From NCBI RefSeq assembly GCF_000756375.1, contig NZ_JNFD01000006.1, forward strand, positions 62,001-126,000: a stretch of 64,000 nucleotides of DNA, written 5' to 3'. Shown here piece by piece: positions 23,504 to 47,547 of this stretch. A model generated the notes under the pieces. The model saw only the letters and a list, made by a program, of their open reading frames with translations. It was not told where the DNA came from and made no database searches. This stretch comes from Sphingopyxis sp. LC81. Its GTDB lineage: Bacteria > Pseudomonadota > Alphaproteobacteria > Sphingomonadales > Sphingomonadaceae. Position 1 is the first letter of the stretch. Every line of letters begins with the position of its first letter. Both the position numbers and the translations under genes were made by a program.

Positions 23504-23516
23504 CGCGATGCTCCTC

Positions 23517-24476
<960 letters not shown>

Positions 24477-24480
<4 letters not shown>

Positions 24481-27231: not shown

Positions 27232-28025
27232 GCGCGTGCTCCTTCGCCGAAGCGTACCGAAACATCGCCCAGCCCGCTGATCCGCACGTCCACGGCGTGA
27301 CCGGACCGGACCGTCGCCATCGGACCGAGCGCGCCGGTGAGGATGATGTCGCCCGCCTGAAGTGGCCGCCCCTTGGCGACCATCATGTCGGCGAGCCAGC
27401 GCGCGGCGTTGAGTGGATTGCCGAGGCAGGCGCGGCCGGCGCCGGACGACTGGACCTGGCCATTCACTTCGAGCACCATCCCGCACAGCCGCAGATCGAG
27501 TTGGCGAAGCAGGCGCGGCGAGCTGCCGAGCACGAAGCCGCCCGACGACGCATTATCGGCGATCGTATCGACGATGCCGATCTTCCAGTCGGCGATGCGG
27601 CTGCCGACGATCTCGATGCCGGGCAGCGCATAGGCGGTCGCCGAGATGATGTCCGCGACCGTATGCCGTTCGTGCGGAAGGTCGCGTTCCAGCACCAGTG
27701 CGACTTCGGCCTCGACTTTCGGCTGAAGAATGGCGTCAATCGGCACTTCGGCGCCATCGTCCCACGCCATGTCGGCGAAGAGCATCCCATAATCGGGTTG
27801 ATCGACGCCGAGCTGCTTCTGAACCGACGCGGACGTCAGCCCGATTTTGCGTCCGGCCAGCCGCCGGCCGGCGGCCAGCGCGGCGTCGGTGTTGATTTCC
27901 TGCACCGCATAGGCCGCGGCAAGGTCGCCGGCCGGCAGCAGGGGAGCGATCGGCGCGCAAGGCGTGCCGCTGACTTCGGCGGTGCGAAGCTGCTCGGCGA
28001 TTTGGGCGTTAACGTTGGCGGACAT
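27228..28025 (-). CDS. nbaH: 2-oxopent-4-enoate hydratase
   Basis: A 265-residue MhpD/DmpE-type hydratase. [23 protein letters not shown] (about residues 59-81), [11 protein letters not shown] with metal-binding Glu residues, and [20 protein letters not shown] are diagnostic. It adds water to 2-oxopent-4-enoate to give 4-hydroxy-2-oxovalerate. It is a clear paralogue of NbaG and more distantly of the hydratase at 9976-10773. It lies 8 nt after the semialdehyde dehydrogenase and overlaps the acylating dehydrogenase by ATGA. Confidence 0.93.
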
Positions 28026-28033
28026 GGCGGCGC

Positions 28034-29512
28034 TCACAATTTGATGCAGATGTTGACGGGCTCGGAATAGAAGGCGAGCGAGTGCTCGCCGCCCTCGCGG
28101 CCAATTCCCGATAATTTGACCCCGCCGAAAGGCGTGCGGAGGTCGCGCAGGAACCAGTCGTTGACCCAGACGACGCCCACTTCGAGCTGCCGCGCGACGC
28201 GGTGGGCGCGCTTGACGTCGCTGGTCCACACCGCCGAGGCGAGGCCGTAGGGGGAGTCATTAGTGCGCTCGATCACCTCATCCTCGTTGTCGAACGGCGC
28301 GATGTGGCAGACGGGGCCGAAAATCTCTTCGCGCACGCAGCGCGCGTCGTCGCCGAGACCGGTGAGGATCGTCGGTTCGACGAAGGCGCCTTGGTCGAGT
28401 TCGTTGCCGAAGTGCGGCACGCCGCCGCCGGTAACGATCGTCGCGCCTTCCTCGACCGCGAGCCGATAATAGCCCAGCACCTTTTCGCGGTGCTGCGCCG
28501 AAATCAGCGGCCCCATGTCGGCGCCGTCATAGGGGTCGCCGATCGTGATTGCGCGCGCGCGTTCCGCTAGTTCGGCGACGAAGCGCTCGAAGATCGGGCG
28601 CTCGACATAGACGCGCTCCGAGCAGAGGCAGACCTGCCCGCAATTGGTGAACACCGACCGCATCGTCCCCGCCACCGCGGCGTCGAAATCGGCATCGGCG
28701 AATATGATCGCGGCATTCTTGCCACCCAGTTCGAACGAGATCGGTTTCACGCCGTTCGCTGCGCTGCGCATGATCGCCGAGCCGGTCGAGGATTCGCCGG
28801 TGAAGGTGATTGCGTCGATGTCGGGATGGCCGACCAGCCACTCGCCGGTCGAACCGCCGCCGAAGCCGTGAACGAGGTTGAACACCCCCGGGGGCATACC
28901 CGCCGCATCCATCACCTCGGCGAGCAAGGTCGCGGTCGAGGGCGTCTCTTCCGAAGGCTTGGCGACGACCGTGTTGCCGCAGGCGAGCGCCGGCGCCACT
29001 TTCCAGGTGAGCAGGAGCAGCGGCAGGTTCCACGGCGAGACCACCGCGACGACGCCCAGCGGCTTCGCGATGCTATAGTTGATCGCGCCCAATCCGTCGG
29101 GGGTTTCGCTTTCGAAGGACTGGTTCGACCGCCCTTGCGCGAGCGCGGCGAAATTGCGGAAATTGGCGGCGCCGCGCGGAATGTCGATCTTCGTCGCCTG
29201 AAGGATGGATTTGCCGGTGTCGGCAATCTCGGCGGCGACGAAATCGTCGAAGCGCGCCTCGATCATGTCGGCGACTTTCCCCAGCAAGGCCGAACGCTCG
29301 GCGAGCGACATGCGCCCCCACGGTCCCTTGAGCGCGCGCCGCGCGGCTTGCACCGCCGCATCCACCGTTTCGCGGTCAGCGAGCGCCACCCGGCCAATCT
29401 CGTTCGCCGTAACGGGATCGACCGCAGCGAAGCTCTGGCCGGTCTCGACGAACCTGCCGTCGACATAATTGGCCAGCACGCGACTGGCGAAGGGATAGGG
29501 TGTGTTGGGCAT
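28034..29512 (-). CDS. nbaE: 2-aminomuconate-6-semialdehyde dehydrogenase (ALDH family)
   Basis: A 492-residue NAD-dependent aldehyde dehydrogenase. Motifs: SPWNLPLLLLTWK, NAD-binding GNTVVAKPSEETPSTA, FTGESSTGSAI, the general base Glu in SFELGGKNAA (about 262), and the nucleophile Cys in FTNCGQVCLCSERV (about 295). Members of this clade oxidise 2-hydroxy- or 2-aminomuconate semialdehyde. It is the promoter-proximal gene of the nba operon; an ATG six codons upstream (29530) is possible. A LacI-type operator (29606-29615) lies about 95 nt upstream. Confidence 0.92.
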   Translation of the reverse strand: MPNTPYPFASRVLANYVDGRFVETGQSFAAVDPVTANEIGRVALADRETVDAAVQAARRALKGPWGRMSLAERSALLGKVADMIEARFDDFVAAEIADTGKSILQATKIDIPRGAANFRNFAALAQGRSNQSFESETPDGLGAINYSIAKPLGVVAVVSPWNLPLLLLTWKVAPALACGNTVVAKPSEETPSTATLLAEVMDAAGMPPGVFNLVHGFGGGSTGEWLVGHPDIDAITFTGESSTGSAIMRSAANGVKPISFELGGKNAAIIFADADFDAAVAGTMRSVFTNCGQVCLCSERVYVERPIFERFVAELAERARAITIGDPYDGADMGPLISAQHREKVLGYYRLAVEEGATIVTGGGVPHFGNELDQGAFVEPTILTGLGDDARCVREEIFGPVCHIAPFDNEDEVIERTNDSPYGLASAVWTSDVKRAHRVARQLEVGVVWVNDWFLRDLRTPFGGVKLSGIGREGGEHSLAFYSEPVNICIKL

Positions 29513-29603
29513 GATCCATCCGGTGAGCAATTGTTTCCCAATCGCGCGGAGCGGGTCGCTGTGCTCGCCGCAACGTCGGCGACGACACCTATGAGAAACG
29601 CTC

Positions 29604-29617
29604 TACAATCGATTGCA
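29604..29617. promoter_or_regulatory. Operator site 1 (CAATCGATTG) at the nba promoter
   Basis: TACAATCGATTGCA; the palindromic core is 29606-29615 with the central CG typical of LacI-family operators. It lies in the 183-nt region between nbaE (minus) and the LysR gene (plus). On the minus strand TTGCAA of the site could serve as a -35 for nba, so binding would block initiation. One of four copies in the window. Confidence 0.75.
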
Positions 29618-29695: not shown

Positions 29696-30706
29696 ATGGC
29701 CCAACCCGCCCCCGAGGCGCCGCGGTTCGAGAACCGACTGCTCACCGGGATCAAGCTCAGGCAGTTGCGCCTGCTGGTCGCGGTGAGCGAACAGGGCAGC
29801 ATCCTGCGTGCTGCCGCCACGCTGAATGTCGCCCAGCCCGCAGCAACGAAGATGCTACGCGATCTGGAACATGCGCTCGGCGTCGAACTGTTCGCCCGTT
29901 CATCGCGCGGGGTAATGCCAACGCTGTTCGGCGAGGTCGTCATCCGTCATGCCAAGCTCGTGCTGGCGCAATTGCGCCATGCGAGCGATGAACTGTCTTC
30001 GCTCACGCAGGGCGCTTCGGGGCGTGTCGTCGTCGGCACCTTGCTTGCGGCGGCGCCGCACCTCTTGCCTCGCGCCATCATCGCGTTGAAGCGCGAGCGG
30101 CCGGGGATCCGTATTTCGGTGGTCGAGGGAACGAACGACAAGCTCCGTCCGATGCTGCGCGGCGGCGATCTCGACCTCGTAATCGGCCGTCTTCCCGAAT
30201 ATCGTGAACGCGCGGGACTGACGCATGAAATATTATACGAAGAGCCGGTTTCGATCGTGGTGCGCCGGGGGCATCCGCTGGCGCGGCGATCTGCGTTAAA
30301 GCTGGCCGATCTCCGGTCGCAGGAATGGATACTCCCGCCGCCCGAGACATCGCTGCGCCGCCAGCTTGAGCAGGGGTTTCGTGCCGCCGGCCTTGAACTG
30401 CCGGCACTATCGATCGAATCGGTGTCGATCCTGGCCAATTTCGCGCTTCTGCGGGAAACCGACATGGTGGCTGCGCTGCCCTTTGAGGTCGCGGGTTCGC
30501 AACCCGATCTCGTGCGGCTGCCGATCGATGTCGACATAGGCTATGGTGCGGTTGGCGTCACGCTGCGGCGTGACGCGGAATTGGCGCCGGCAACGCAATA
30601 TTTTCTGTCGATCATCCGCCGTATCGCGAGCACGCAGAAAGCCAAAAAGGGACGGAATGGCAGTGCATCGTGCGCAATCGATTGTAAAATCGAACCCGGG
30701 CTGTAA
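29696..30706 (+). CDS. LysR-type transcriptional regulator, divergent from the nba operon
   Basis: A 336-residue LTTR of the GbpR/PcaQ-like group. The HTH is KLRQLRLLVAVSEQGSILRAAATLNVAQPAATK in layout (residues 18-50), followed by FARSSRGVMPTLFG. The effector domain starts at GRVVVGTLLAAAPHLLPRAI. The ATG at 29696 is preceded by a GGAATGAGA ribosome site. Its divergence from nbaE matches the usual activator arrangement (an LTTR, NbaR, also accompanies nba genes elsewhere). Its last codons overlap operator site 2, so the 3' end also serves as the lacI control region; the C-terminal Lys-rich tail may reflect that. Confidence 0.88.
   Translation: MAQPAPEAPRFENRLLTGIKLRQLRLLVAVSEQGSILRAAATLNVAQPAATKMLRDLEHALGVELFARSSRGVMPTLFGEVVIRHAKLVLAQLRHASDELSSLTQGASGRVVVGTLLAAAPHLLPRAIIALKRERPGIRISVVEGTNDKLRPMLRGGDLDLVIGRLPEYRERAGLTHEILYEEPVSIVVRRGHPLARRSALKLADLRSQEWILPPPETSLRRQLEQGFRAAGLELPALSIESVSILANFALLRETDMVAALPFEVAGSQPDLVRLPIDVDIGYGAVGVTLRRDAELAPATQYFLSIIRRIASTQKAKKGRNGSASCAIDCKIEPGL
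30673..30686. promoter_or_regulatory. Operator site 2 (CAATCGATTG) upstream of lacI-type gene
   Basis: Core 30675-30684, inside the last codons of the LysR gene and about 95 nt before the GTG of the LacI-type regulator. TTGTAA (30682-30687), 16 nt, then TAATCT could be the lacI promoter, so the operator overlaps its -35: negative autoregulation. Confidence 0.75.
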
Positions 30707-30776: not shown

Positions 30777-31829
30777 GTGGCAAAACGATCGAAGCCGGTT
30801 GGGACGGTCACTTTGAAGCATGTTGCCGAGGCGGCGGGCGTGCATGCCTCGACGGTTTCGCGCGCGCTCAACCCGGCGACGCGTCATATGGTCGTTCCCG
30901 AGGTGGCCGAGCGGGTGGCGAAGCTTGCCGGGAGCCTTGGATATCGGCCCAATCTTATGGCTGCCGGATTGCGTACCGGTCGTTCGCAACTGATCGGGGC
31001 GCTCGTTCCGGACATCGCCAATACCGTATTCTCGCCTATTTTGAGCGGCGCGAGCGCCAGTCTTGCCGCGCAAGGCTATTCCATTCTCGTCGCCGACGTC
31101 GGCACCAACCCGGCGCGGCATCTTGAGCTCGCCAATCAATTGGTCGCGCGCCGGATCGACGGCTTCATCCTCGCGACGGTGAGCCGCGACGATCCCATCG
31201 TCGATTTCTGCCTCGAACAGAATCTACCCGCGGTGCTGGTCAACCGCGCCGAGGAAAGGCGCCGGCTGTCCGCCGTCGTGTCGGACGATACGCTGGGCAT
31301 GCAGCTGGCGGTCGACCATCTCGTGGCGCTCGGTCACAAACGGATCGGCCATCTTGCCGGACCCGAAACCATCTCTACAGGTCATCTGCGGCGCAAGGGG
31401 TTTTACGACGCGATCGCGCTGCACGGCCTCGCTGCCGGGAATTGCCCGAGCGAAGCAACCGAAGCCTATAGCCGCGAGGAAGGCCTGCGCGCCGGCGAGC
31501 GATTGCTTGCCTCGGCGCCCGACATCACCGCGATCGTCGCCGCCAATGATCTTCTGGCGCTTGGCGCTTATGATGCCGCGGCCCGCGGCGGCCGATCGGT
31601 GCCGGACGACCTCTCGATCGTCGGGCACAATGACATGCCGCTCGTCGACATGGTCGCGCCGCCGCTCACCACGGTACGGATCAGCCATCAGGAAATCGGC
31701 CGCGTCGCCGCCGACCTGTTGTTGCAGCAATTGACGGGCAAGGAATATTCGACGCGCAATATTGTGCTGGCGCCGACACTGATCGTGCGCGGCTCGACGG
31801 CGACCGCACGAGGGCGCGATAGCGGTTAG
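30777..31829 (+). CDS. LacI-family transcriptional regulator
   Basis: A 350-residue repressor. Start GTG at 30777 with GAAGGAG upstream. The LacI HTH is VTLKHVAEAAGVHASTVSRALN (residues 11-32) followed by the hinge helix PNLMAAGLRTGRS (about 58-70), the part that inserts at the central CG of an operator. The periplasmic-binding-like domain has GALVPDIANTVFSPILSGA, DDTLGMQLAVDHLVALGHKRIGHLAG and VGHNDMPLVDMVAPPLTTVR. Four CAATCGATTG palindromes occur within 5 kb around it, at nba, at itself, at the dioxygenase promoter and in the SDR gene, so it probably controls this whole block. Its stop overlaps the convergent cupin gene by four bases. The ligand is unknown, likely a pathway aromatic or acid. 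Confidence 0.92.
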   Translation: MAKRSKPVGTVTLKHVAEAAGVHASTVSRALNPATRHMVVPEVAERVAKLAGSLGYRPNLMAAGLRTGRSQLIGALVPDIANTVFSPILSGASASLAAQGYSILVADVGTNPARHLELANQLVARRIDGFILATVSRDDPIVDFCLEQNLPAVLVNRAEERRRLSAVVSDDTLGMQLAVDHLVALGHKRIGHLAGPETISTGHLRRKGFYDAIALHGLAAGNCPSEATEAYSREEGLRAGERLLASAPDITAIVAANDLLALGAYDAAARGGRSVPDDLSIVGHNDMPLVDMVAPPLTTVRISHQEIGRVAADLLLQQLTGKEYSTRNIVLAPTLIVRGSTATARGRDSG

Positions 31830-32188
31830 GGAGGCGTGGGCGGGGCGTTTTCCATCGCCAGCAGGATCGTCGCCGGCGTTTCGGTGCGATTGACCAGCGC
31901 ACGGTCGGCGCCGGGCGCGATGCGGCACGAATCCCATAGACCCAGCCGCACCGTTTCGCCCGCGCTCGTCATCTCGACGCTTCCCTCGAGTATGACATAC
32001 ATCTTCTCTAGCGACGAGGTACTCGGCGCAATGCTGCCGCCGGGGGCGATCGTCGAGATCGCCATCCACATGGCGGTCGAGGGCCCTGCTTCCATTCCCT
32101 GGACGCGCAGGCAGCGCATCGCGTGATGGCCGGGCGCCTGATATTCGGGCGCTTCGGAAAAGCGGGTCACCTGCATGGCGGTGGTCAT
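31826..32188 (-). CDS. Small cupin-fold protein
   Basis: A 120-residue single-domain cupin. GGSIAPSTSSLEKMYVILEGSVEM and LGLWDSCRIAPGADRALVNRTETPATILLAM correspond to cupin motifs 1 and 2. The usual metal-binding His residues of motif 1 (HxH) are replaced (IAPSTSS), and motif 2 has no His, so it may bind no metal and act as a binding, isomerase or accessory protein. The start ATG overlaps the MDR reductase stop (ATGA), so the two are coupled. The last four bases overlap the convergent lacI stop. Function unknown. Confidence 0.72.
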   Translation of the reverse strand: MTTAMQVTRFSEAPEYQAPGHHAMRCLRVQGMEAGPSTAMWMAISTIAPGGSIAPSTSSLEKMYVILEGSVEMTSAGETVRLGLWDSCRIAPGADRALVNRTETPATILLAMENAPPTPP

Positions 32189-33186: not shown

Positions 33187-33307
33187 CAATTTCATTTCCT
33201 TCATGTGCGAGCCGCCGGGACGGCCCCGACGCATATCCTTCGCGCGAAGGACCCCGGCAAATTGCGCGTGGTCACATCGCGGTAACATTTTTTGTTTGCA
33301 GTCTCTG

Positions 33308-33317
33308 CAATCGATTG
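33308..33317. promoter_or_regulatory. Operator site 3 (CAATCGATTG) between the MDR gene and the dioxygenase operon
   Basis: CAATCGATTG within CTCTGCAATCGATTGTAAAG, in the 257-nt divergent region 33187-33443. On the plus strand TTTGCA, 17 nt, then TAAAGA could be a promoter with the operator between its two boxes. The same site could repress the divergent minus-strand pair. Confidence 0.78.
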
Positions 33318-33443
33318 TAAAGAGATTCTTGTTCGGAGCGAGAATGGCAGCGCCGCAAGATTGCCGATCCGTTCTTCGACGATGAAGTTGCACGTAGCGC
33401 CCCGCTTTCACGACCGGGCCAGGCAATAGAGAGAGGTTGCGAC

Positions 33444-34328
33444 ATGCTCGACTCGACGACGCTGGACCGCGAAGCGGACGAAGCCGGTATGATCACGGAG
33501 GCCGTCGTCGCATCCTTTTCCCAGACGGGCGATGCGCGTCTTCGCGAAGTGTGCGAGGCGTTGACGCGGCATCTGCATGCCGCCGTGCGCGAGACCGGGT
33601 TGACGCGCGAAGAGCTGGATACGGGCATCGCGTTCATCAATGCGGTGGGGCAGGCGACGACTTCGACGCATAATGAAGCAATCCTGCTCGCCGATGTTTT
33701 CGGGCTGACGACGCTCGCGTGTCACAATGACGAAGCCTGGGAAGGCGACGAAGCTTTGCTTGGCCCGTTCTGGCGGATGCATTCGCCGCTGACACCCAAT
33801 GGCGGCTCGATCATCCGCTCGGCGACGCCGGGCCGTCCGCTCGAAGTCGCCGGCCATATCGTCGATCGCGCGGGGCAGGGGATAGCCGGGGTCGAGGTCG
33901 ATGTGTGGCAGGCGTCGCCCTGCGGACTCTATGAAAATCAAGATGATACGCAGAGCGAAATGAATTTGCGCGGCAAGTTCATTACCGATGCGGATGGGCG
34001 GTTCGGCTTCGAAACGGTGATGCCGGCGGGCTATCCGGTGCCGACGCACGGGCCGGTCGGCGGCTTGCTTGCTCATCAGCAGCGCCATCCTTTCCGGCCG
34101 GCGCACATCCATTTTCTGGCGTGGAAAGACGGGTATCGGACGCTGATCACCCAGATATTCGTCCAGGATGACGAGCATCTGACGAGCGATGTCGTGTTCG
34201 GCGTCAGTGACAAGCTAGTCGGCACCTATGCGCGCAGCGATACGGACGGCGAGGCGGCTTACCGGCTCGAGCGGACCTTCACGATGCGGGAAGGGGAAAC
34301 GCACTTGCCGCATCCCCCGATCGCGTGA
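33444..34328 (+). CDS. Hydroxyquinol 1,2-dioxygenase (intradiol)
   Basis: A 294-residue intradiol dioxygenase. The N-terminal helical linker domain (1-100) is followed by LLGPFWRMHSP, the signature that separates hydroxyquinol from catechol enzymes. Ferric iron ligands fall at Tyr163 (GLYENQ), Tyr197 (AGYPVP), His221 and His223 (RPAHIHF), the spacing of characterised hydroxyquinol dioxygenases. It cleaves 1,2,4-trihydroxybenzene to maleylacetate (3-hydroxy-cis,cis-muconate). It is the first gene of a plus-strand operon with an SDR, a BKACE enzyme and a TonB receptor. No dedicated maleylacetate reductase of the iron-ADH type is present. Confidence 0.9.
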   Translation: MLDSTTLDREADEAGMITEAVVASFSQTGDARLREVCEALTRHLHAAVRETGLTREELDTGIAFINAVGQATTSTHNEAILLADVFGLTTLACHNDEAWEGDEALLGPFWRMHSPLTPNGGSIIRSATPGRPLEVAGHIVDRAGQGIAGVEVDVWQASPCGLYENQDDTQSEMNLRGKFITDADGRFGFETVMPAGYPVPTHGPVGGLLAHQQRHPFRPAHIHFLAWKDGYRTLITQIFVQDDEHLTSDVVFGVSDKLVGTYARSDTDGEAAYRLERTFTMREGETHLPHPPIA

Positions 34329-34339
34329 GGAGCAGCATG

Positions 34340-35095
34340 ATGCCCCAGTCCCTGACAGGAAAGACGGCGCTGATTTTCGGCGGCACCGGCGCGATCGGTG
34401 CGGCAAGCGCGCGCGCCCTCGCCACTGCGGGAGCGCGGATCATCATCGTCTACCGCCACAGTGCGGCGGGCGTCGAGAGCGCGGGGGAACTGCTTGCATC
34501 GCTTGACGGCACTGGCCATCGGGCCTGTCCCGCGGACATTTCCGACACCGCTTCGATCGAGCAATTGCGAGACAATCTTGCAATCGATTGTGCTGTTTTG
34601 GATATATTGGTCAATGCCGCGGGCTTTACCCAGCCTGTCGCCCACGCCGACCTCGACGCGCTCGACGATGCGCTGATCGACGAGATTTTCCGCGTTAACT
34701 GGCGGGGTCAGTTTGCGGCGATCCGGACCTTCGCGCCGATGCTCAAGGCGTCGAAAAACGGGCTGATCGTTTCGCTATCGTCGATCGCCGGATTTACCGG
34801 CGTCGGTTCGAATATCGCCTATTGCGCCGCCAAGGCGGGCATCGACGTGATGACGAAGGCTCTGGCGCGCGCGCTGGCACCCGAAGTGCGTGTGCTCGCC
34901 GTCTCTCCCGGTGTGGTCGACAGCGATTTCGTGCCGGGCCGCAGCGCCGACTTCAATGCGCGCGTCGAGGCCAGCATTCCGCTGCGGCGGATCGCCACCG
35001 CCGACGATGTGGCCGATGCGGTGCTCGCCTGCGCCACCCACCTTCGCTATTCGACCGGGCACATCGTCCAGATCGATGGCGGCCGAGCACTCTGA
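34340..35095 (+). CDS. SDR-family oxidoreductase
   Basis: A 251-residue classical SDR. The cofactor loop is FGGTGAIGAASARALA (residues 12-27), then NAAGF near 90, Ser in IVSLSSIAGF and YCAAKAG (Tyr-x3-Lys), and C-terminal GHIVQIDGGRAL. The start is taken as the second of two adjacent ATGs (34340), seven bases after AGGAG; 34337 and GTG 34325 are alternatives. It follows the dioxygenase by 11 nt. Odd: operator site 4 lies inside the coding sequence, spelling LAIDC. Substrate unknown; a ring-cleavage product or a beta-hydroxy acid feeding the BKACE step is plausible. Confidence 0.82.
   Translation: MPQSLTGKTALIFGGTGAIGAASARALATAGARIIIVYRHSAAGVESAGELLASLDGTGHRACPADISDTASIEQLRDNLAIDCAVLDILVNAAGFTQPVAHADLDALDDALIDEIFRVNWRGQFAAIRTFAPMLKASKNGLIVSLSSIAGFTGVGSNIAYCAAKAGIDVMTKALARALAPEVRVLAVSPGVVDSDFVPGRSADFNARVEASIPLRRIATADDVADAVLACATHLRYSTGHIVQIDGGRAL
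34581..34590. promoter_or_regulatory. Operator site 4 (CAATCGATTG) inside the SDR gene
   Basis: Perfect CAATCGATTG about 240 bp into the SDR gene and 1.27 kb downstream of site 3, in reading frame as codons for A-I-D-C. Like intragenic lac operators it could support DNA looping with site 3 or act as a roadblock. Confidence 0.6.
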
Positions 35096-35107
35096 AGGGC
35101 TGCGGCG

Positions 35108-36040
35108 ATGTTTCCGATCACCGACCCGATCATCCTCACCTGCGCCGTTACCGGCAATCTCACCACGCGCGAGCAGACGCCGCATCTGCCGGTTACGCCC
35201 GCCGAAATCGCGAATTCCGCAATTGAAGCTGGCGATGCCGGGGCTGCGGTCGTGCATCTCCATGTGCGCGATCCCGAAACCGGCGCGCCTTCGATGGAAA
35301 TTGCGCATTACCGCGAGGTAATCGAGCGCATCCGCGACGCCCGGCCCGAACTGGTGCTCAATATCACCACCGGCCCCGGCGGGCGTTTTGTGCCTTCACG
35401 CGACGATCCGAAGATTGCGGCGGCGGGAACCACCTTGCTCGCTCCCGAAGCCCGCGTCGAACATATCGCGTTGCTGCGGCCGGACATCTGCACGCTCGAC
35501 CTGAACACCATGAACTCGGGCGCGGCGGTCGTCATCAATACGCCCGACAATGTAAGGCGCATGGCCGCAGTCATCCGCGAGGCAGGGGTCAAGCCGGAGA
35601 TCGAATTGTTCGACTCGGGCGACATCGCCTTGCTCCACGATCTCATCAAGGACGGCACGCTCGATACTGCGCCGCTCTGCTCGATCGTGACCGGCGTACG
35701 CTACGGATTCCAGGCAAGCGCGGCGACGGCGCTCTATGCGTCGGGCCTGCTGCCGGCCGGGTCGACCTGGGCGGCCTTTGGTATCGGCCGGGCGGCCTTT
35801 CCGATGGTCGCGCAGTCCGTGCTCGCCGGCGGACATGCCCGCGTCGGCCTCGAAGATACCGTCTACCTCGATCGCGGCGTTCTGGCGCCGTCGAATGCTG
35901 CTCTCGTCATGAAGGCGCGGCGCGTCATCGAGGATCTCGGAGGGCAGCTTGCCGATGCGGCCGCGGCGCGCCGGCTTCTGGCACTCGATCACACCACGCG
36001 CCGATCGGCGGATGGTCAAAAGATAAAAGCTCAGGGATAG
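35108..36040 (+). CDS. BKACE (DUF849) beta-keto acid cleavage enzyme
   Basis: A 310-residue TIM-barrel enzyme of the 3-keto-5-aminohexanoate cleavage family. The zinc ligands lie in AAVVHLHVRDPETG (His50, His52), and the C-terminal Glu is in VGLEDTVYLDRG; NITTGPGG and EIELFDSGD are family blocks. These enzymes take a beta-keto acid and acetyl-CoA (or another CoA ester) and give acetoacetate or a new CoA ester without a classic thiolase. Following hydroxyquinol cleavage, the attractive substrate is 3-oxoadipate from maleylacetate, but this is inference. It lies 12 nt after the SDR and 10 nt before the receptor. Confidence 0.88.
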   Translation: MFPITDPIILTCAVTGNLTTREQTPHLPVTPAEIANSAIEAGDAGAAVVHLHVRDPETGAPSMEIAHYREVIERIRDARPELVLNITTGPGGRFVPSRDDPKIAAAGTTLLAPEARVEHIALLRPDICTLDLNTMNSGAAVVINTPDNVRRMAAVIREAGVKPEIELFDSGDIALLHDLIKDGTLDTAPLCSIVTGVRYGFQASAATALYASGLLPAGSTWAAFGIGRAAFPMVAQSVLAGGHARVGLEDTVYLDRGVLAPSNAALVMKARRVIEDLGGQLADAAAARRLLALDHTTRRSADGQKIKAQG

Positions 36041-36050
36041 GAGAATAATC

Positions 36051-38291
36051 ATGGGGACTCGTAGCAATCTTACTTTCGCGCTTCTCGCCGCGTCGTCGGC
36101 GCTGGCTTTTCCGGCATTCGCCCAGACACCGACCGCGCCCGCGGGTTCCGCAGCGGAGAATGGGTCATCGGCCGCATCCGAGCCCGGCGGTCTCGAGGAG
36201 ATCGTCGTTACCGCGCAGAAGCGGAGCGAGAACCTGCAGACTGTCCCGCTGTCGTTGACCGCCTTTTCGGGCGATACGCTCGAGAAGTCGGCAGTCACGA
36301 GCATCGCCGAGCTTGCCGCGCGCACTCCGAATGTGAGCTATGACACCTTCTCGCCGGGTCAGCCGCGCTATTTCATCCGCGGCATCGGCGGCACCGCCAG
36401 CGGTTCGGCCCGCGACGGGGCGATCGGCATCTTTGTCGACGATGTCTATATGGGTCGACCCGCGATGACGGGCACCGATTTCGTAGACTTGGCGCGCGTC
36501 GAAGTGCTGCGCGGTCCGCAGGGCACATTGTTCGGCCGCAATGTCGTCGGCGGGGCGATTTCCTATTTTACCCTCAAGCCCGACGACGAGTTTCGTGCGC
36601 AGGCCGCGCTTACGCTCGGCAATTATCGCAGGATCGATGGCAATTTCCTGGTCAGCGGGCCGATTTCGGACACGCTGTCAGCGAAGGTCGCGGTTTCGTC
36701 GCGCAATCATAATGGTTACGCATTCAACGAGACAACGGGCAAGGATATCGAAGACGAACAGTCGATTGTGGCGCGCGGTGCGCTGCGCTTTCAGCCCAAC
36801 AGCGATGTCGATATCCAGCTCAATGCCGATATCTCGCGGCTTCGGGCGACCGGCAACTGGTGGCACCTGCTGCGCGAAGGCCCGAACTCCATTGGAAAGT
36901 CGAACGCCGATCCGCGCCGCGGCCGCAACCATACCGACGACGGCTTCAGCGACGTTGATAATGGCGGCGTCAGCCTCAATGCACGGTTCCAGACGGGCAT
37001 CGGCGAGATCGCTTCGATAACCGCCTATCGCGAATCGACCTCGTCGACCCGCGCCAATACGACAGGGTTGTTCGTCGCGCCGCTGACCGATCCGAACCGC
37101 GGCCAGTTCCATCACACGCTGTTCATCCAGCAAAGCGACGTCGATTCGAGCCAATTCTCGCAGGAACTGCGCCTCGCCTCGGAAATCGGATCCGATATCA
37201 GCACTGTGATCGGCCTCTTCTATTTTCACGAAAATGTGAAATCGACCGACATTACCGATTATCGCTTCGTTAGCCGCAATAGCGAGGGCCGCCGCCGTTT
37301 CGACGGGCGTAACAAGACCGATTCCTATGCCGCATTCGCCAACATTGCATGGGACGTGACCGACGAACTCAAACTGCGCGCCGGTCTGCGCTGGAGCCTC
37401 GACAAGAAGGATCATGTCGCCGTCGCCGGGGGCAATAATTTCGTGCCCTATCGGGACGGCGGCGTCATCGTTCCGGGCTTCACGGCTCCGGGCAAGGACT
37501 CATGGGACGCCTTCACGCCCTCGCTCTCGATCAACTATCAGGCGACCCCGACCAAATTCTTCTACGCGTCGCTCTCGCGCGGGTTCAAGAGCGGCGGCTT
37601 CAGCGATACCGAGATCGAAAAGCTGAGCGCGATGACGGCGTTCGATCCCGAATTCGCGTGGAACTATGAGGTCGGCATGAAGACCGAATGGTTCGACCGC
37701 CGCCTGCGCTTCAATGCGTCATTGTTCTACACCGACTATACCGATCTGCAGGTCACCGTGATCCGTATCGTCGATCCGGCCTTTCCGCCGTTCGGGACGA
37801 CCGGCAACGCCGGCAAGGTCGTGATCAAGGGGGCCGAGCTGGAGGTGAATGCCATTCCGGTCGACGGATGGAATATCTACGGCAACTACGCCTACACCGA
37901 TTCCAATATCAAGGAACTGGTCGTCGGCACGGCCGATCTGGCGGGCAATCGCCTCGGCCGTTCGCCCAAGCACAAATTCTTCGTCGGAACCTCCTATGAG
38001 ACCGAAATCGGGGGCGGATACAAGGCGGCGGCGCGCGTCGAATATACCTATAGCTCGTCCTTCTTCAGCTCTATCAACAACACGCCGGTCGAACTGATCG
38101 ACGGACAGCGCAGTCTCGATCTGGGACTGACGCTCACCACCCCCGACGACAAATGGTCGGTCGATTTCTGGGGCAAGAACATGACCGACCGCCTCAACAT
38201 CAACACGATTACGGAAGTGCCGCTGCGCGACGGCTACGCGTCGTTCCTGCCGCCGCGCACTTTCGGAGCGACATTGCGCTTCCGCTATTGA
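36051..38291 (+). CDS. TonB-dependent receptor
   Basis: A 746-residue receptor. Signal peptide MGTRSNLTFALLAASSALAFPAFAQ, a Pro/Ala-rich linker, then TonB box EEIVVTAQKRSENLQ and the plug with RYFIRGIGGTASGSARDGAIGIFVDD and VEVLRGPQGTLFGRN as landmarks. It ends in FGATLRFRY with the terminal aromatic. It belongs to the large sphingomonad receptor family linked to aromatic and hydrophobic substrates. It shares the dioxygenase-SDR-BKACE operon (10-nt gap), so it probably imports the aromatic precursor. AGGAG-like GGATAGGAGAA precedes the ATG. Confidence 0.92.
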   Translation: MGTRSNLTFALLAASSALAFPAFAQTPTAPAGSAAENGSSAASEPGGLEEIVVTAQKRSENLQTVPLSLTAFSGDTLEKSAVTSIAELAARTPNVSYDTFSPGQPRYFIRGIGGTASGSARDGAIGIFVDDVYMGRPAMTGTDFVDLARVEVLRGPQGTLFGRNVVGGAISYFTLKPDDEFRAQAALTLGNYRRIDGNFLVSGPISDTLSAKVAVSSRNHNGYAFNETTGKDIEDEQSIVARGALRFQPNSDVDIQLNADISRLRATGNWWHLLREGPNSIGKSNADPRRGRNHTDDGFSDVDNGGVSLNARFQTGIGEIASITAYRESTSSTRANTTGLFVAPLTDPNRGQFHHTLFIQQSDVDSSQFSQELRLASEIGSDISTVIGLFYFHENVKSTDITDYRFVSRNSEGRRRFDGRNKTDSYAAFANIAWDVTDELKLRAGLRWSLDKKDHVAVAGGNNFVPYRDGGVIVPGFTAPGKDSWDAFTPSLSINYQATPTKFFYASLSRGFKSGGFSDTEIEKLSAMTAFDPEFAWNYEVGMKTEWFDRRLRFNASLFYTDYTDLQVTVIRIVDPAFPPFGTTGNAGKVVIKGAELEVNAIPVDGWNIYGNYAYTDSNIKELVVGTADLAGNRLGRSPKHKFFVGTSYETEIGGGYKAAARVEYTYSSSFFSSINNTPVELIDGQRSLDLGLTLTTPDDKWSVDFWGKNMTDRLNINTITEVPLRDGYASFLPPRTFGATLRFRY

Positions 38292-38355: not shown

Positions 38356-41349
38356 ATGAAAAAATGGGCCGCGCTGTTGTTGGGCATGAGTTCGTTGGCT
38401 GCACCGCCGGCGCTGGCCGAAACCCGGACTTTCACCGTCGATGAAGGAACCAACTTTGCCGCGGCGCTCTCGCCCGACGGCAAGAGAATCGTCATCGACC
38501 TTCAGGGCGAACTCCGTATCCTGCCCGCCAAGGGCGGCGCGGCATCCTATCTGGTCGAACTGCCCGACGAGGCGCGTCTGCCCGCTTGGTCGCCCGACGG
38601 CCAATGGATAGCGTTTCAGCATTTCTCGGCCGGACATTGGCGCATCTTCATCGTCGCGCGCGACGGCACCGGTCTGCGCCAGCTCACCCAAGGCATGTCC
38701 GACGACCGCGAACCGGCCTGGTCCGCCGACGGCAAGACGATATTCTTCAGTTCCGACCGCGCGGGCAATTTCGATGTCTGGAAGGTCGGGCTCGATAGCA
38801 GCGCCCCGGAGCAGTTGACGAAGTCTCAGGCGGAAGAATATTTTCCCGCCGTCGCCCGCGATGGACGTCTGGCCTTCGTCTCCGCCAGTCAGGACGATCG
38901 CAACCTGGTGGTGCGCGAGAGCGGGAAGGACCGCATCCTCCTGTCATCGAAGAATGAGCTGGTTGGCCCGGTCTGGAATGCCGACGGAAGCCGGCTTGCA
39001 TATGTCGAATATCGCGAGGTCAACGAAGGCCGCGACGCGGGGATGAGTGCGCTCAACATCGTCGATCCGGCGACCGGCACGATCATGCGCCAAAGCGGCG
39101 AGCGCGAGGATGTCTTTACCGGGCGGCCCCAATGGCGCGCGGACGGCGGGCTGCTTTACGCCGCCGACGGCAAGATCCGCACACGCCGCGGCGCGAAGGC
39201 GAAGGATATTTCCTTCGCTGCGCGCTTCGAGGTCGCGCGTCCCGAACCCTATCGCTTCAAACGTCAGGACTTCCTGTCGTCGGCGCCGCAGACGGCAAAG
39301 GGCATCATGTCCCCGGTCGTTTCGCCGGACGGCCGCAAGATTGCCTTCGTCGCGCTGGGCGACATCTGGCTGTTGACGATCGGCAAGGCGCAGCCCGAGC
39401 GGCTCACCGATGATCCATGGGTCGACATCGATCCGACGTGGTCGCCCGACGGATCGAAGCTTGCCTTCGCGTCGGACCGCCGCGGCAACGGCATCATGGA
39501 CATCTATGTGCGTGATATGAAGACCGGCCGCGAAGAACGTGCAACCGAAACCAAAGAAAACCTGACCGCGCCGGCTTTTTCGCCCGACGGCAAAAGCATT
39601 GCAGTCACCATGCTCGACCATGGCGACTGGCACGCCAACACGCTCCATGTCCTCGACTTGGGAACGCGCCAGCTGCGCAAGCTCGATGAGGCGCAGTTCA
39701 AGCCCAGCCCGCCGCGCTGGCTTCCCGATGGCAGCGCGATTGCCTCGGTGGCGCTCGACTATATTTCCAAACGGTATCGCAAGGGGCTCAACGAAGTCCG
39801 TCTTGTCCCGCTGGACGGTTCGCCGCCGCATTTTGTCAGCCCCACCCCGGGTGTCGCGCTTGGCATCCGTTCGGCCAACGGCATCAGCTGGTCGCCCGAC
39901 GGCCGGCAGGCCGCCTTCGTAGAGGATGGCGCGCTTTGGTCTGTCATGACGACCCGCGATGGCAAGTTCAACGGCACGCCGCGCCGGCTGACCAGTGACA
40001 TTGCGGATTATCCGAGCTGGACCGCCGATTCCAAAGCGATCATTTTTACATCGGTCGACAAGCTGAAGCGGCTCAACATCGACGATGGTTCGATCGATGA
40101 CATCCCGCTGACGCTGGACTGGACCCCGCATCGTTCGAAGGGGCGCAAGGTGATCCGCGCTGGCCGGCTGTTCGACGCGCGTTCGCTCGACTATCGCACC
40201 AACGTCGACATCCTTGTCGAAAACAATGTCATCAAGGAGATCGTCCCGCGGCGCGCCGACTGGGGCGGCGTCGAGATCGTCGACGCTTCCGACAAGACCG
40301 TGATCCCCGGACTGTTCGAAAATCACATCCACAATTTCATCATCAACGGCGAGATTACCGGGCGCGTCGCGCTGTCCTATGGCGTCACGTCGATCCGCGA
40401 GCCGGGCACCGAACCGAGCGAAGGGCGTGAGTCAAAGGAAGCCTGGGCGAGCGGGCGCCGTATCGGGCCGCGACTGTTCACCACCGGACTGATCGAGGGC
40501 GGACGGGTCTATTACCCCATGTCCTTCCCGGTGCGTTCCCCCGCGGCGCTCGAACTGGAACTCGATCGCGCCGCGCGTTTCGATGTCGACTTCATCAAGG
40601 CCTATGAGCAACTCGACGCCCCCTTCCTCAAGCGAACAATCGAGTTTGCGCACAAGCTGGGTATCCCTGTCACCTCGCACGACGCCTATCCGGCGGCGCG
40701 TTTCGGTGCCGATGCCGTTGAGCATCTGACGGCGCGCGATCGCGCTTCGATCGGCGATCGGCAGTCGGCGCTCGGCAACATCTATCAGGACGTCGCGCAA
40801 ATTTATGCGCAGTCGGGGATGGCCGTTGTGCCCACCGCGATCGGCGGTTCAATGCGCACGGGCGGCTATTATCTGCAGCAAGCGGGCCGGTCGATGATCG
40901 ACCTGCCGCAAATGAAACTGCTGCCTGAGCGTTTTCGTAACTCGCGCCAGATTGCCGGCGCCGTCGTCCCGGGCAAGTCTACCTTCGACGCCAGGCTGCT
41001 GGCCGAATCCACCGGGCCGCTGCGTACGCTGATCGCCGCCGGCGTTCCCATCCCGACCGGGACCGACACCGCCTTTTACAATATCGGTTTCGGCATTTTT
41101 GGCGAAATGTTCTATTATGTCGAGGCTGGTATGACGCCCGCGCAAGCGATCCAGCAGGCGACGATTGAATCCGCCCGCCTCAACCATGTCGAGGATCTGT
41201 TAGGCACGATCGAACCGGGCAAGCTTGCCGACATGGTGATCCTGTCGGGCGATCCGCTTGCCCGCATCACCGACCTCGTTAACGTCTCCGCCGTCGTTAA
41301 GGACGGCGAAGTCTACACCCTCGACCGGCTTCTCGCCGGACCCCGCTGA
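38356..41349 (+). CDS. Exported TolB-propeller/amidohydrolase fusion protein (copy 1)
   Basis: A 997-residue protein. Signal peptide MKKWAALLLGMSSLAAPPALA; residues about 25-590 carry repeated S-P/A-D-G blades (AWSPDGQW, AWSADGKT, TWSPDGSK, FSPDGKS, SWSPDGRQ) of a TolB/WD40-like beta-propeller. A metal-dependent amidohydrolase domain follows, with HxH in FENHIHNF near 658, TSHDAYPAARFGADAVEHL, GTDTAFYNIG (Asp) and the closing IEPGKLADMVILSGDPL. The ATG follows GGAGG. Such fusions are common in sphingomonads and act outside the cytoplasm, often annotated as peptidase/imidazolonepropionase-like; the real substrate is not known. It is paralogous to the next gene, 10 nt away. Confidence 0.85.
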   Translation: MKKWAALLLGMSSLAAPPALAETRTFTVDEGTNFAAALSPDGKRIVIDLQGELRILPAKGGAASYLVELPDEARLPAWSPDGQWIAFQHFSAGHWRIFIVARDGTGLRQLTQGMSDDREPAWSADGKTIFFSSDRAGNFDVWKVGLDSSAPEQLTKSQAEEYFPAVARDGRLAFVSASQDDRNLVVRESGKDRILLSSKNELVGPVWNADGSRLAYVEYREVNEGRDAGMSALNIVDPATGTIMRQSGEREDVFTGRPQWRADGGLLYAADGKIRTRRGAKAKDISFAARFEVARPEPYRFKRQDFLSSAPQTAKGIMSPVVSPDGRKIAFVALGDIWLLTIGKAQPERLTDDPWVDIDPTWSPDGSKLAFASDRRGNGIMDIYVRDMKTGREERATETKENLTAPAFSPDGKSIAVTMLDHGDWHANTLHVLDLGTRQLRKLDEAQFKPSPPRWLPDGSAIASVALDYISKRYRKGLNEVRLVPLDGSPPHFVSPTPGVALGIRSANGISWSPDGRQAAFVEDGALWSVMTTRDGKFNGTPRRLTSDIADYPSWTADSKAIIFTSVDKLKRLNIDDGSIDDIPLTLDWTPHRSKGRKVIRAGRLFDARSLDYRTNVDILVENNVIKEIVPRRADWGGVEIVDASDKTVIPGLFENHIHNFIINGEITGRVALSYGVTSIREPGTEPSEGRESKEAWASGRRIGPRLFTTGLIEGGRVYYPMSFPVRSPAALELELDRAARFDVDFIKAYEQLDAPFLKRTIEFAHKLGIPVTSHDAYPAARFGADAVEHLTARDRASIGDRQSALGNIYQDVAQIYAQSGMAVVPTAIGGSMRTGGYYLQQAGRSMIDLPQMKLLPERFRNSRQIAGAVVPGKSTFDARLLAESTGPLRTLIAAGVPIPTGTDTAFYNIGFGIFGEMFYYVEAGMTPAQAIQQATIESARLNHVEDLLGTIEPGKLADMVILSGDPLARITDLVNVSAVVKDGEVYTLDRLLAGPR

Positions 41350-41359
41350 GAGGCCGACC

Positions 41360-44300
41360 ATGCGCTCTATGCTCAAATTGCTGATTCCCAGCCTGATCGC
41401 ACTTGCCGCGGGCACCGCGTCGGCGCGCGAGGTGTCGTTCGAAGTGGGGGAGGGCACCAATTTCGCGGCGGTGCCGTCGCCGGACAAGTCAGCGGTGGCG
41501 ATCGATCTTCAGGGCCGGATCTGGATCGTACCGTTCAAGGGCGGGACGGCGCGGCCGATCACCCCGCTGATGGACGAGGCACGCTTTGCCGCCTGGTCGC
41601 CTGACGGCAAGTGGCTCGCCTTTCAATATTACCAGGACGGTGGCTGGCACATCTGGGTCAGCCGTCCGGACGGCAGCGAACGCCGTCAGCTGACCTTTGG
41701 CACCAGCGACGAGCGTGAACCGCACTGGACCGCCGACGGCCGGGCGATCCTGTTCGGATCGGATCGCGGCAACAGCTTCGATATCTGGCGGGTCGATGTC
41801 GCAAGCGGCACGATCGACAAGGTTAGCGCCGCGTCGAGCGATCCCGCAAGCGACGAATTTTATCCCGATGCATCGCCCGACGGTCGCAGCATCGCCTATA
41901 TCGCCGCGGCGGGCCGTGCACAGAGTCTGGTCGTCGAAACCGACGGGCAGGCGCGCAAGCTGCTGACGGTCGAAGGCGACGACCTCGCGTTGCCGCGATG
42001 GAGTCCCGACGGCACCCGCATCGTGATCAATCGCTATAATGAGGATCGCGCCGAGAGCTCGCTGCGCATTGTCGATGTCGCGACTGGCGCTGAGACGCGC
42101 GCCGACGATCCAAAAGAGGATGTCTTCCCGACCGGCGCTTCATGGCTCGATCGTGACACGCTGTCCTATGCGGCCGACGGTCAGATCAAGACGCGCCGCA
42201 TCGGCGGCAAGTCATCGGTAATCCCCTTTCGTGCGCGGTTCGACGTGCAATCGCGCGCCGAATATCCCAAGCGCAGCTTCGACCTCGCTTCGACGGGCCC
42301 GCGGCCGGTGAAGGGTATCATGCGCCCGCAGGTGTCGCCCGACGGGAAGGCGATATTGTTCACCGCGCTCGGTGACCTTTGGCGGCTCGATATTGGCGAA
42401 GCGAAGCCCAAAAAACTCACCGACGACGCCTTTCTCGATGCCGATCCGGCGTGGTCGCGCGATGGACGGCGGATTGCCTATCTGTCCGATCGCCGCGGCG
42501 TCGGTACGACCGATCTTTATATTCGCGATGTAGCGACAGGGACGGAGCGCCGGCTGACCCAGACCGAGAATGATCTCATGCAGCCGGCCTGGTCGCCCGA
42601 TGGCACGAGCATCGCGGTGTTCATGCGCGACGCCAACGACTGGCACGCCGCACGGCTCAACATCGTCGACGTCGCGACGGGCAAGCTGCGCCAGGTTCAT
42701 GACGGGTTGTTTTTGCCTTCCAGTCCGACCTGGTCGCCCGATGGCAAGTCGATCATGACCCTTGTTCTGCGGGCTCCGGCGAAACGGTTCCGCAAGGGGC
42801 ATAATGAGTTCATGACGATCGATGTCGCGACTGGTGCGACACGCTTTTCGACGCCCGACAAGAGCCGTTCGATCTCGGCGCGCAGTCAGACCGCGCCGGC
42901 CTGGTCGCCCGACGGCAGCAAGATCGCCTACCTTCATCAGGGCGTGCTGTGGAGCGCCGCGGTCGATGCGCAGGGCGATATTGTCGAGGCTCCGGTGCAG
43001 CTGTCGCGAGCCTATGCCAGTTACCCGAGCTGGACAGGCGATTCAAAGGCGATCGTCTATCTCGACGGCACGGCGTTCAAGCGCATTTCGCTGGTCGATG
43101 GCGCGATCGAGGACATCGCGCTCGATTTGACATGGCAGCGCAAGACCGCGCCGCAGCGCACGGTTATTCGCGCCGGGCGCGTCTTTGACGCGGTCACGGC
43201 AGGCTACCGCCGCGATTTCGATATTGTGATCGACGATAACAAGATCAGTGAGATTGTTCCGCGCCGTGCCGATTGGCCGGGCGCGCGCATCATCGATGCG
43301 CAGGACAAGACCGTTATTCCCGGCCTGATCCAGACGCATATCCATCATTTTGTCAGCGATGGCGAGACGCCGGGGCGCACCTGGTTGTCTTTCGGCGTCA
43401 CATCTGTGCGCGAACCGGGCGCCGAGCCCTATGAAGCGCTCGAACGCCGCGAAGCCTGGGCCAGCGGTCGCCGCCTCGGACCGCGCCAATTCTATTCGGT
43501 GATCCTCGAGGGCGACCGGCTCTATTACTGGATGAACGTCGGCGTCGGCCCCGACGCGCAGCTGGAGATGGAGCTCCAGCGGGCTCTCGATCTCGATTAC
43601 GACTTTATCAAGACCTACGAAACGATGACGCACGAGGTGCAGCGTCGCATTGTCGACTTCGGGCATCGTCACGGGCTGATGGTCGCGTCGCACGAACTCT
43701 ATCCCGCCGCCACCTATGGCGTGGACGCGATCGAGCATATGGGAACGCGCGACCGGATGCAGTTTTCCGATCGCATATCGATGAACAACCGCGCCTATGA
43801 TGACGTGGTGAAGCTGCTCAGCCTCTCGGGAATGTATATCAGCCCGACGTCGGGCGGGCGGTTGCCGGGGACGAGCTTTACCTACCAGATGCGCAAGCTG
43901 CCAAGATTGCTCGACCTGCCACAGGTCAAAGCATTTCCGCCGCGGTACATCGCCGCTTACAAGCGTGCGATGGGCTATTTCGAGAAGGTCCATGGCGACC
44001 GTGCGGTGGAGGCTGCGCATGACGAACTCGCAACGCTCAAGAAATTCAGCGATGCGGGGATTGTGATCGGCGCGGGCACCGACGGCGGCACCGTCAGCTA
44101 CGGTTTTGGCGAGATCGGCGAGATCATGCATTTTGCCGAAGCCTATGGCGCGGACAAGGCGCTGCGTTCCGCGACGATCGAGTCTGCGCGTATCACGGGT
44201 GTCGAGAAATATCTGGGCAGCATAGAGGTCGGAAAGCTTGCCGATCTGGTCATCCTTGACGGTGATCCGCTGGCCGACGTCCGCGACTTGTTCAAGGTGA

Positions 44301-47445: not shown

Positions 47446-47506
47446 TTTCTTCTCTCCGACAGATTCATTGTTCCGTGGAGACGTATCGGATGCACGCCGG
47501 CATCGG

Positions 47507-47547
47507 GTCCAATTCAAAATAGTCCGGAACTATTCATCTATGGAATA
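47507..47547 (-). promoter_or_regulatory. LysR-type box plus conserved promoter element, thiolase gene
   Basis: Read on the minus strand: TATTCC (47547-47542 complement of GGAATA), N5, TGAATA, exactly 14 nt, then TGAATTGGAC (complement of 47507-47516). T-N11-A is satisfied. TTGGAC could be the -35 hexamer. It lies 62 nt upstream of the thiolase start. The same layout recurs at three other promoters. Confidence 0.75.

Follow-up and report, generated by a model that had tools for sequence, protein, structure and literature searches.

A LacI-associated gene module of Sphingopyxis sp. LC81 with a probable hydroxyquinol dioxygenase and a BKACE-family enzyme: a possible route through 3-oxoadipate

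How might a bacterium that opens a trihydroxylated aromatic ring metabolise the product, when its dioxygenase gene has none of the neighbours found beside dxnF in Rhizorhabdus wittichii RW1? This question is raised by a 64,000-nucleotide stretch of Sphingopyxis sp. LC81 (bases 62001-126000 of contig NZ_JNFD01000006.1, here C6, in a 4.4-Mb genome of 48 contigs), hereafter the window. At 33444-36040 it holds the genes of a probable hydroxyquinol dioxygenase (DIOX), a short-chain dehydrogenase/reductase (SDR) and a BKACE-family enzyme. A preliminary description had placed these genes next to one another on one strand and suggested that they form a 3-oxoadipate route free of CoA-transferase. Their position, contiguity and orientation were confirmed by open reading frames (ORFs) and Pfam domains, and the unit turned out to be larger, with the following components, in which MDR stands for medium-chain dehydrogenase/reductase:

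33444-34328, plus strand: intradiol ring-cleavage dioxygenase (DIOX; 294 aa; PF00775 and PF04444), probably a hydroxyquinol (1,2,4-trihydroxybenzene) 1,2-dioxygenase
34325-35095, plus strand: classical SDR oxidoreductase with a GTG start (PF13561/PF00106)
35108-36040, plus strand: BKACE-family enzyme (beta-keto acid + acetyl-CoA; PF05853), proposed to carry out 3-oxoadipate:acetyl-CoA cleavage
32185 to about 33270, minus strand: MDR reductase of the quinone-reductase/enoate-reductase type (PF00107/PF08240), candidate maleylacetate or hydroxyquinone reductase
31826-32188, minus strand: small cupin protein that lacks a conserved HxH metal site (PF07883 in a family representative)
30777-31829, plus strand: LacI-family regulator (PF00356 and PF13377)
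33306-33319, no strand: probable LacI operator TGCAATCGATTGTA between the divergent MDR and DIOX genes (palindrome match)
30673-30686, no strand: probable LacI operator CGCAATCGATTGTA upstream of lacI (palindrome match)
34579-34592, no strand: operator-like site TGCAATCGATTGTG inside the SDR gene (palindrome match)
29604-29617, no strand: operator-like site between a minus-strand 3-hydroxyanthranilate operon and a LysR gene (palindrome match)

The three plus-strand genes are intact and tightly packed, with an overlap of 4 nt between DIOX and SDR and a gap of 12 nt between SDR and BKACE. Head to head with DIOX, the minus strand carries the MDR and cupin genes, and lacI precedes both; the start of the MDR gene is uncertain, the longest ORF reaching 33426, which would span the operator. 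The regulator, the cupin and the MDR are part of the unit, which thus exceeds the three genes initially described.

This unit would serve, under the control of LacI, to degrade a trihydroxylated aromatic, most likely hydroxyquinol. DIOX would open the ring between the vicinal hydroxyls to give 3-hydroxy-cis,cis-muconate, that is, maleylacetate, and an NAD(P)H-dependent enzyme, more likely the MDR, would reduce its C=C bond to yield 3-oxoadipate, the SDR acting elsewhere or as an alternative maleylacetate reducer. BKACE would then move the acetyl part of 3-oxoadipate to acetyl-CoA, releasing acetoacetate and succinyl-CoA, and both pcaIJ and pcaF would thereby be dispensable for 3-oxoadipate. 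A scoAB-type CoA-transferase encoded elsewhere in the genome would activate the acetoacetate. We give this route, from hydroxyquinol through maleylacetate and 3-oxoadipate to acetoacetate and succinyl-CoA, a probability of about one half. Its substrates and reactions are all ones that we infer; gene content and order, operator, co-occurrence and metal- and anion-site residues are observations.

Ring cleavage by an enzyme of the intradiol type is well in line with the domains PF00775 and PF04444 of DIOX and with its iron-ligand positions. Among solved structures, DIOX scored 186.6 bits against 1tmx, 177 against PnpC and 174.7 against a 6-chlorohydroxyquinol dioxygenase, compared with 109.6 for the best catechol dioxygenase, which favours the hydroxyquinol type previously predicted for it. 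Residues Y163, Y197, R218, H221 and H223 are kept at a level of at least 95% in 52 aligned members, and Y163, Y197, H221 and H223 stand at the iron-ligand positions of 1tmx. No second intradiol dioxygenase was found, DIOX being the only PF00775 match of the genome. Hydroxyquinol is favoured as the substrate because BKACE, if it acts like its family, requires a beta-keto acid; hydroxyquinol is the trihydroxybenzene whose intradiol cleavage directly yields such an acid, with no need for a cycloisomerase.

The BKACE assignment itself is clear, with 313.2 bits against PF05853 (cut-off 24.8). The AlphaFold model of the enzyme (mean pLDDT 93) matched BKACE structures (3c6c with a Z-score of 42.6 and 1.4 A over 290 residues), in agreement with a TIM barrel, and the alignment predicts a zinc site of two histidines and one glutamate. 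These zinc-ligand positions, H50, H52 and E249, are kept in 66/66 module sequences and align with His48, His50 and Glu247 of BsfD (9zsc), the nearest sequence in the PDB (157/286 residues identical, 54.9%). In BsfD, according to its authors, the same three residues hold zinc, Arg226, Lys254 and Tyr251 contact CoA, Phe166 replaces the canonical tyrosine and Arg91 lies near the phosphonate of a beta-keto acid (PMC12871164). At the corresponding sites the window enzyme carries R228, R256 (lysine in BsfD) and Y253 for CoA, together with F168 and R93, and the pocket argument is built on this alignment to residues placed by the authors of BsfD. R93 is nearly invariant (at least 90% of 59 aligned relatives) and, together with the zinc site, would favour an omega-anionic beta-keto acid, e.g. 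3-oxoadipate. The catalytic tyrosine (Tyr145 of Kce) is replaced by F168. Kce has neither the loop arginine nor a phenylalanine at position 168, and matches to NF053568, the curated family of 3-oxoadipate enzymes, have the loop arginine in 16/16 cases and the phenylalanine in 16/16, so that F168 does not exclude cleavage. A second BKACE of the genome, on contig C2, was discarded as a 3-oxoadipate enzyme, its best NCBIfam score being 145.9 bits for Kce (cut-off 382); no protein of the genome matched NF053568 at 1e-70.

Two reductases could provide the intermediate step. The MDR came closest to quinone reductases and enoyl reductases, its nearest NCBIfam model, quinone_pig3, remaining below cut-off; its N-P-S-D motif, kept at a level of at least 95% in 59 aligned members, presumably sits where zinc-dependent alcohol dehydrogenases carry a zinc ligand. 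The SDR reached no cut-off among the 25 best NCBIfam models shown, and its Y166 and K170 are kept at a level of at least 95% in 67 aligned members. Reduction of a C=C bond is usual for MDRs of the quinone/enoyl-reductase type and unusual for classical SDRs, and, if either of the two reduces maleylacetate, the MDR is the likelier one, judging from these affinities. As for the cupin, an alignment of 12 members showed no HxH in its conserved columns. Its only NCBIfam match is weak and below cut-off, to a model named beta-D-galactosidase.

The gene set differs markedly from that of RW1, where a thiolase, CoA-transferase subunits A and B, DxnF and an iron-containing alcohol dehydrogenase are encoded in one stretch (Swit_4887-4891, pSWIT02), the dehydrogenase being 53-56% identical to annotated or confirmed-type maleylacetate reductases (MARs). 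Both systems share the intradiol cleavage of hydroxyquinol, predicted in the case of the window, but the MAR-type dehydrogenase, CoA-transferase and thiolase that stand beside dxnF have no counterpart in the window operon. Indeed, no dxn-type CoA-transferase or thiolase was found in the window (1e-20) and no MAR with DxnE as query (1e-20), and a genome-wide search at E <= 1e-30 gave no MAR homologue either. The absence of these three enzymes, as stated in the preliminary description, therefore holds for the operon and, for MAR, genome-wide; it needs qualifying for the other two, as a CoA-transferase pair is encoded on contig C14 and the window has a thiolase-fold gene of a lipid-transfer subfamily. 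The latter (46255-47517, minus strand) was rejected as PcaF, being assigned to PRK08256 and sharing 26% identity with the beta-ketoadipyl-CoA thiolase encoded in the dxn cluster of RW1. The two iron-containing alcohol dehydrogenases of the genome that pass the Pfam cut-off were rejected as MARs: one (L003, on the window's own contig, some 4.4 kb ahead of it) resembles ADH2/lactaldehyde reductase, with 236 bits against 3owo versus 79-87 for the MAR structures 3jzd, 3w5s, 3hl0 and 3iv7, and the other (L004) passes the PsrA model. The C14 pair, the only one of the scoAB/pcaIJ subfamily in the genome, could activate acetoacetate, by analogy with deoxyribonate catabolism, or could serve 3-oxoadipate itself.

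The association of these genes was then considered across 80 loci (numbered L below), the best 80 of 264 BKACE relatives in named genomes as found by a pattern scan; several of them are short or come from metagenome-assembled genomes (MAGs), and some genomes contribute two loci. Neighbours were counted by tblastn with the window proteins (identity floors 33-40%, 9.5-kb limit), independently of the single-gene annotation, which combined tblastn with a crude ORF calling that missed the BKACE ORF in 9/80 loci. Homologues of SDR occurred within 9.5 kb of BKACE in 71/80 loci, of MDR in 65/80, of DIOX in 56/80, of the cupin in 55/80 and of LacI in 39/80, the LacI gene, where found, often being divergent from DIOX. 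The order DIOX, SDR, BKACE was found in 55/80 loci, followed by MDR in 50/80 and by MDR and cupin in 41/80, an arrangement far above chance. DIOX and MDR were present together in 55 loci and absent together from 14, with MDR alone in ten and DIOX alone in one. Annotated plasmids of Bosea, Skermanella, Shinella and Rhizobium repeat the module order, next to ABC, TRAP or TctC transporters.

Co-occurrence extends to loci in which the dioxygenase is not linked. Ten loci have the SDR-BKACE-MDR set, in every case with the cupin, and no neighbouring DIOX; a DIOX was found elsewhere in 10/10 of these genomes, with an identity of 53-57% in nine of them (two matches being partial) and 49% in the tenth. 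Among comparison genomes with a BKACE relative and no module, 6/19 had a DIOX match, none above 51% (2/4 genomes at 50 and 51%, and 4/15 with a best value of 49%); two loci with BKACE and neither DIOX nor MDR, L070 and L084, were excluded from this comparison, their own genomes holding the full clusters L096 and L086. Among 298 genomes of the family, four have a BKACE of at least 65% identity, and DIOX (E <= 1e-60) occurred in 4/4 of these and in 2/294 of the others (Fisher p 4.7e-8).

A shared regulatory site was also found. The palindrome TGCAATCGATTGCA is common to the upstream regions of DIOX: it lies within 400 bp of DIOX in 45/56 loci (two mismatches allowed), and 1.44 Mb gave 112 matches, compared with one for a reversed control pattern. 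Four matches were observed in the window, versus 0.43 expected, and in the whole genome these four sites are the only ones within one mismatch of TGCAATCGATTGYA, the control pattern giving 0. The internal SDR word TGCAATCGATTGTG recurs at 9473 in the S. colocasiae locus L055. We propose LacI as the protein that would bind TGCAATCGATTGCA, because lacI adjoins the site; a conserved palindrome beside the regulated gene is what a LacI-type operon would be predicted to have. Taken with the gene order kept in 55/80 loci, the operator in 45/56 DIOX loci supports the functional unit of DIOX, SDR and BKACE that had been assumed at the outset.

The identity of the intermediates is informed by genes that accompany the module elsewhere. 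MAR genes occur in 8/56 DIOX loci (six full-length matches, two ending at the locus edge), which would support maleylacetate as an intermediate. In Skermanella stibiiresistens (L106), a canonical MAR (13786-14853; 448 bits against 3jzd, 358 against 3hl0) lies 21 nt after the symporter gene of the module run. A search of 41 genomes, namely the window genome and those that together hold 40/56 DIOX loci and one additional locus, gave a MAR match in 23/41 (21 at 48% identity or more) and none in 18/41, absences from MAGs being weak evidence. A dxn-type CoA-transferase pair of the pcaIJ/scoAB type was found in 2/56 DIOX loci (L102 and L127), which hints at the proposed intermediates, and a thiolase in 0/56.

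Several observations weigh against the proposed route. At the ring-cleavage step, DIOX shares 39.6% identity with DxnF over 250 aa and, in a tree of 81 sequences that held no catechol dioxygenases, it fell in a clade of 73 that excludes DxnF and seven MAR-linked dioxygenases (support 0.97 and 1.0). Two members of this clade, Swit_5041 of RW1 and an enzyme of Shinella, are encoded next to HpaH/HpaI-type genes, with the annotations 2-oxo-heptene-dioate hydratase and HpaI-type aldolase, and this suggests that their own product is an alpha-keto acid; a third close dioxygenase, L188, had no HpaH/HpaI-type neighbour. DIOX might accordingly act on another trihydroxylated or methoxylated ring, SDR and MDR converting what is formed into some other omega-anionic beta-keto acid for BKACE. 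In line with this, two reductases are kept where one would suffice, and a Rieske VanA-type gene adjoins the cupin and MDR genes in L056. However, hydroxyquinol is a simple ring that gives a beta-keto acid without further enzymes, and the MAR genes near the module point to maleylacetate; a different ring is, on balance, unlikely.

The same MAR genes count against the MDR as maleylacetate reductase, and the coexistence of MAR and MDR in L106 means that the MDR may act elsewhere. It could be a hydroxybenzoquinone reductase that keeps hydroxyquinol, a compound which autoxidises readily, in the reduced state, BKACE then acting on maleylacetate to yield acetoacetate and maleyl- or fumaryl-CoA. Such a role would fit an MDR that is closest to quinone-reductase models and occurs together with MAR in L106. 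We know, however, of no BKACE that uses an unsaturated beta-keto acid, and a MAR gene beside the module, as found in some loci, would then be pointless; the chance of this scheme appears very slim.

Regarding BKACE, the enzyme stayed below every curated subfamily cut-off (Kce, 240/382 bits; 3,5-dioxohexanoate enzyme, 185/430), and membership in NF053568 had to be rejected at 177.3 of 350 bits. It resembles this Cupriavidus-type family in fold, zinc ligands, loop arginine and phenylalanine at 168, but at many columns it lacks the residue conserved in that family, and the loop that follows its third strand is longer. Its closest solved relative is BsfD, with the same phenylalanine (F166/F168) and arginine (R91/R93), and BsfD is described as belonging to a phosphonate biosynthetic cluster and as acetylating and decarboxylating its beta-keto acid instead of cleaving it (PMC12871164). 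The R93/F168 pattern is compatible both with cleavage and with acetylation accompanied by decarboxylation. A BsfD-like reaction would acetylate 3-oxoadipate at C2 with loss of CO2, giving 4,6-dioxoheptanoate (succinylacetone), to be hydrolysed by another enzyme. The identity of 54.9%, the shared phenylalanine in place of the catalytic tyrosine and the shared loop arginine speak for it; against it, the curated 3-oxoadipate BKACEs also carry phenylalanine (16/16), N133, N136 and S137, where BsfD has D, F and F, recur in 66, 61 and 62 of the 66 enzymes from modules, and no gene of the module, whose flanking genes were annotated in part, was recognised as encoding a beta-diketone hydrolase. This renders the acetylation reading improbable.

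The BKACE substrate is not fixed by overall identity, because enzymes of 64-70% identity are also encoded in loci that have neither DIOX nor MDR, next to a gene of the enolase superfamily (L133) or one for an aldehyde dehydrogenase (L079, L087, L088). Furthermore, the C14 CoA-transferase pair is 67/73% identical to the dxn-cluster pair. The pathway could then be an ordinary one, with a scoAB/pcaIJ-type CoA-transferase and a housekeeping thiolase, while SDR and BKACE would serve another beta-hydroxy acid in a deoxyribonate-like manner. SDR-BKACE pairs are indeed reported in sugar-acid catabolism (PMC6365646), and L133 has an enolase-SDR-BKACE arrangement. The deoxyribonate operons resemble the window in that an SDR gene adjoins BKACE and acetoacetate is a product; they differ in having no dioxygenase, and in an SDR that makes the beta-keto acid from a sugar acid (PMC6365646). 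Against an ordinary pathway stand the lack of any MAR homologue in the genome search above (E <= 1e-30), the contiguity of DIOX with SDR-BKACE under a shared operator, the co-occurrence of DIOX with the module even when unlinked, and the surroundings of the C14 pair, 18 kb of which were searched and gave no gene resembling those of DxnE, DxnF or the thiolase. We regard this option as quite improbable, slightly more so than acetylation. The loci L133, L043 and L044 show an enolase-superfamily gene followed by SDR and BKACE (the enolase was scanned in L133 only), and the same BKACE subfamily perhaps acts there in sugar-acid catabolism.

The hydroxyquinol route is the one that we retain. Its fullest form, a widespread hydroxyquinol pathway in which a zinc-free MDR would replace the iron-containing MAR and a BKACE of unassigned subfamily would replace CoA-transferase and thiolase, under LacI/TGCAATCGATTGCA control, is put forward tentatively, as a possibility with the odds somewhat against it.

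Other genes surround the module:

36051-38291, plus strand: TonB-dependent receptor (PF00593 and PF07715)
38356-44386, plus strand: two TolB-propeller amidohydrolases, 3' of the TonB gene (PF07676 and PF01979/PF07969)

The receptor gene starts 10 nt past the end of BKACE, and homologues occupy the same place in L055/L040 (72%) and L042 (55%); it is a probable uptake gene in the sphingomonad form of the module. The TolB-propeller amidohydrolases, with homologues in L055/L040 (83%) and also in L042, would be accessory. Further upstream lie a PRK08204-type amidohydrolase and a SnoaL-like protein (17059-19210, minus strand) and an apparently Tat-exported Amidohydro_2 protein (19390-20679, plus strand). 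Homologues of these genes stand beside the DIOX cluster in L042 (amidohydrolase 88%, SnoaL 71%), whose BKACE module is chromosomal, and in L068/L041 (68%, 51%), and they are possible upstream enzymes. L042 probably belongs to RW1 itself, since a DIOX of its genome has exactly the coordinates of Swit_5041. No shared upstream hydroxylase or decarboxylase was found near the module among annotated representatives of frequent clusters, 89 single genes being unscanned; the frequent partners scanned were transport proteins (ABC, TctC, SDF) and amidohydrolases. In Sphingobium sp. 15-1 (L056, 4146-5186, minus strand), a Rieske/VanA_C oxygenase adjoins the cupin and MDR genes and could O-demethylate a methoxyphenol into a ring-cleavage substrate.

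The window also contains, at 22496-29530 on the minus strand, an apparently complete 3-hydroxyanthranilate pathway, composed of an ACMSD-like amidohydrolase, a 3-hydroxyanthranilate dioxygenase-like cupin (recognised by eye, with no family match), a Rid-type deaminase, a DmpH-like decarboxylase, an aldolase, an acylating acetaldehyde dehydrogenase, a hydratase and a muconic semialdehyde dehydrogenase. In Sphingobium (L209), a mismatch-free operator lies 2 kb ahead of the homologous dehydrogenase gene; none was found around the homologous dehydrogenase in the stretches fetched from three other sphingomonads. A tRNA-Gly called by ARAGORN at 31197-31288 (minus strand) falls inside lacI and was taken as a false call. 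Elsewhere, a second BKACE adjoins the module lacI in Tardiphaga (L096) and passes the 3,5-dioxohexanoate model (536 bits, cut-off 430), the same cluster being found in L103 and L105. On an Agrobacterium plasmid (L162), a BKACE (65%) is accompanied by a different SDR and, a few kb off, by divergent genes for a MAR, a dioxygenase and two SDRs; this layout is a third arrangement.

The replacement of pcaIJF by a BKACE is already described, and the hydroxyquinol-type form would be the new part. In Methylobacterium pca clusters, kce (DUF849) takes the place of pcaIJF, with succinyl-CoA and acetoacetate as proposed products (PMC8963497, PMC12379598), and this route was reportedly used in an engineered strain growing on vanillate and protocatechuate (PMC12379598). 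A BKACE of the catechol regulon has likewise been proposed in Ralstonia (PMC6449761). The Methylobacterium clusters resemble the window in that a BKACE lies in a 3-oxoadipate-forming operon without pcaIJ and pcaF, a likeness in gene content; they differ in belonging to the protocatechuate branch, with the remaining canonical pca genes, instead of a hydroxyquinol-type dioxygenase, SDR, MDR, cupin and LacI. Our search of the open-access literature turned up no hydroxyquinol-type BKACE route that combines MDR, SDR, cupin and LacI.

If the proposed route is true, many Alphaproteobacteria, including rhizobia, would run a lower aromatic pathway that is missed by searches for MAR or pcaIJF, a second type of enzyme would exist for maleylacetate reduction, and closure of the 3-oxoadipate pathway by BKACE would extend to another branch than that of protocatechuate. 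With its five enzymes or proteins, one regulator and one operator, the module is small enough to be directly testable, and it bears on whether the BsfD-like BKACE subfamily, with phenylalanine for the catalytic tyrosine, can cleave its substrates.

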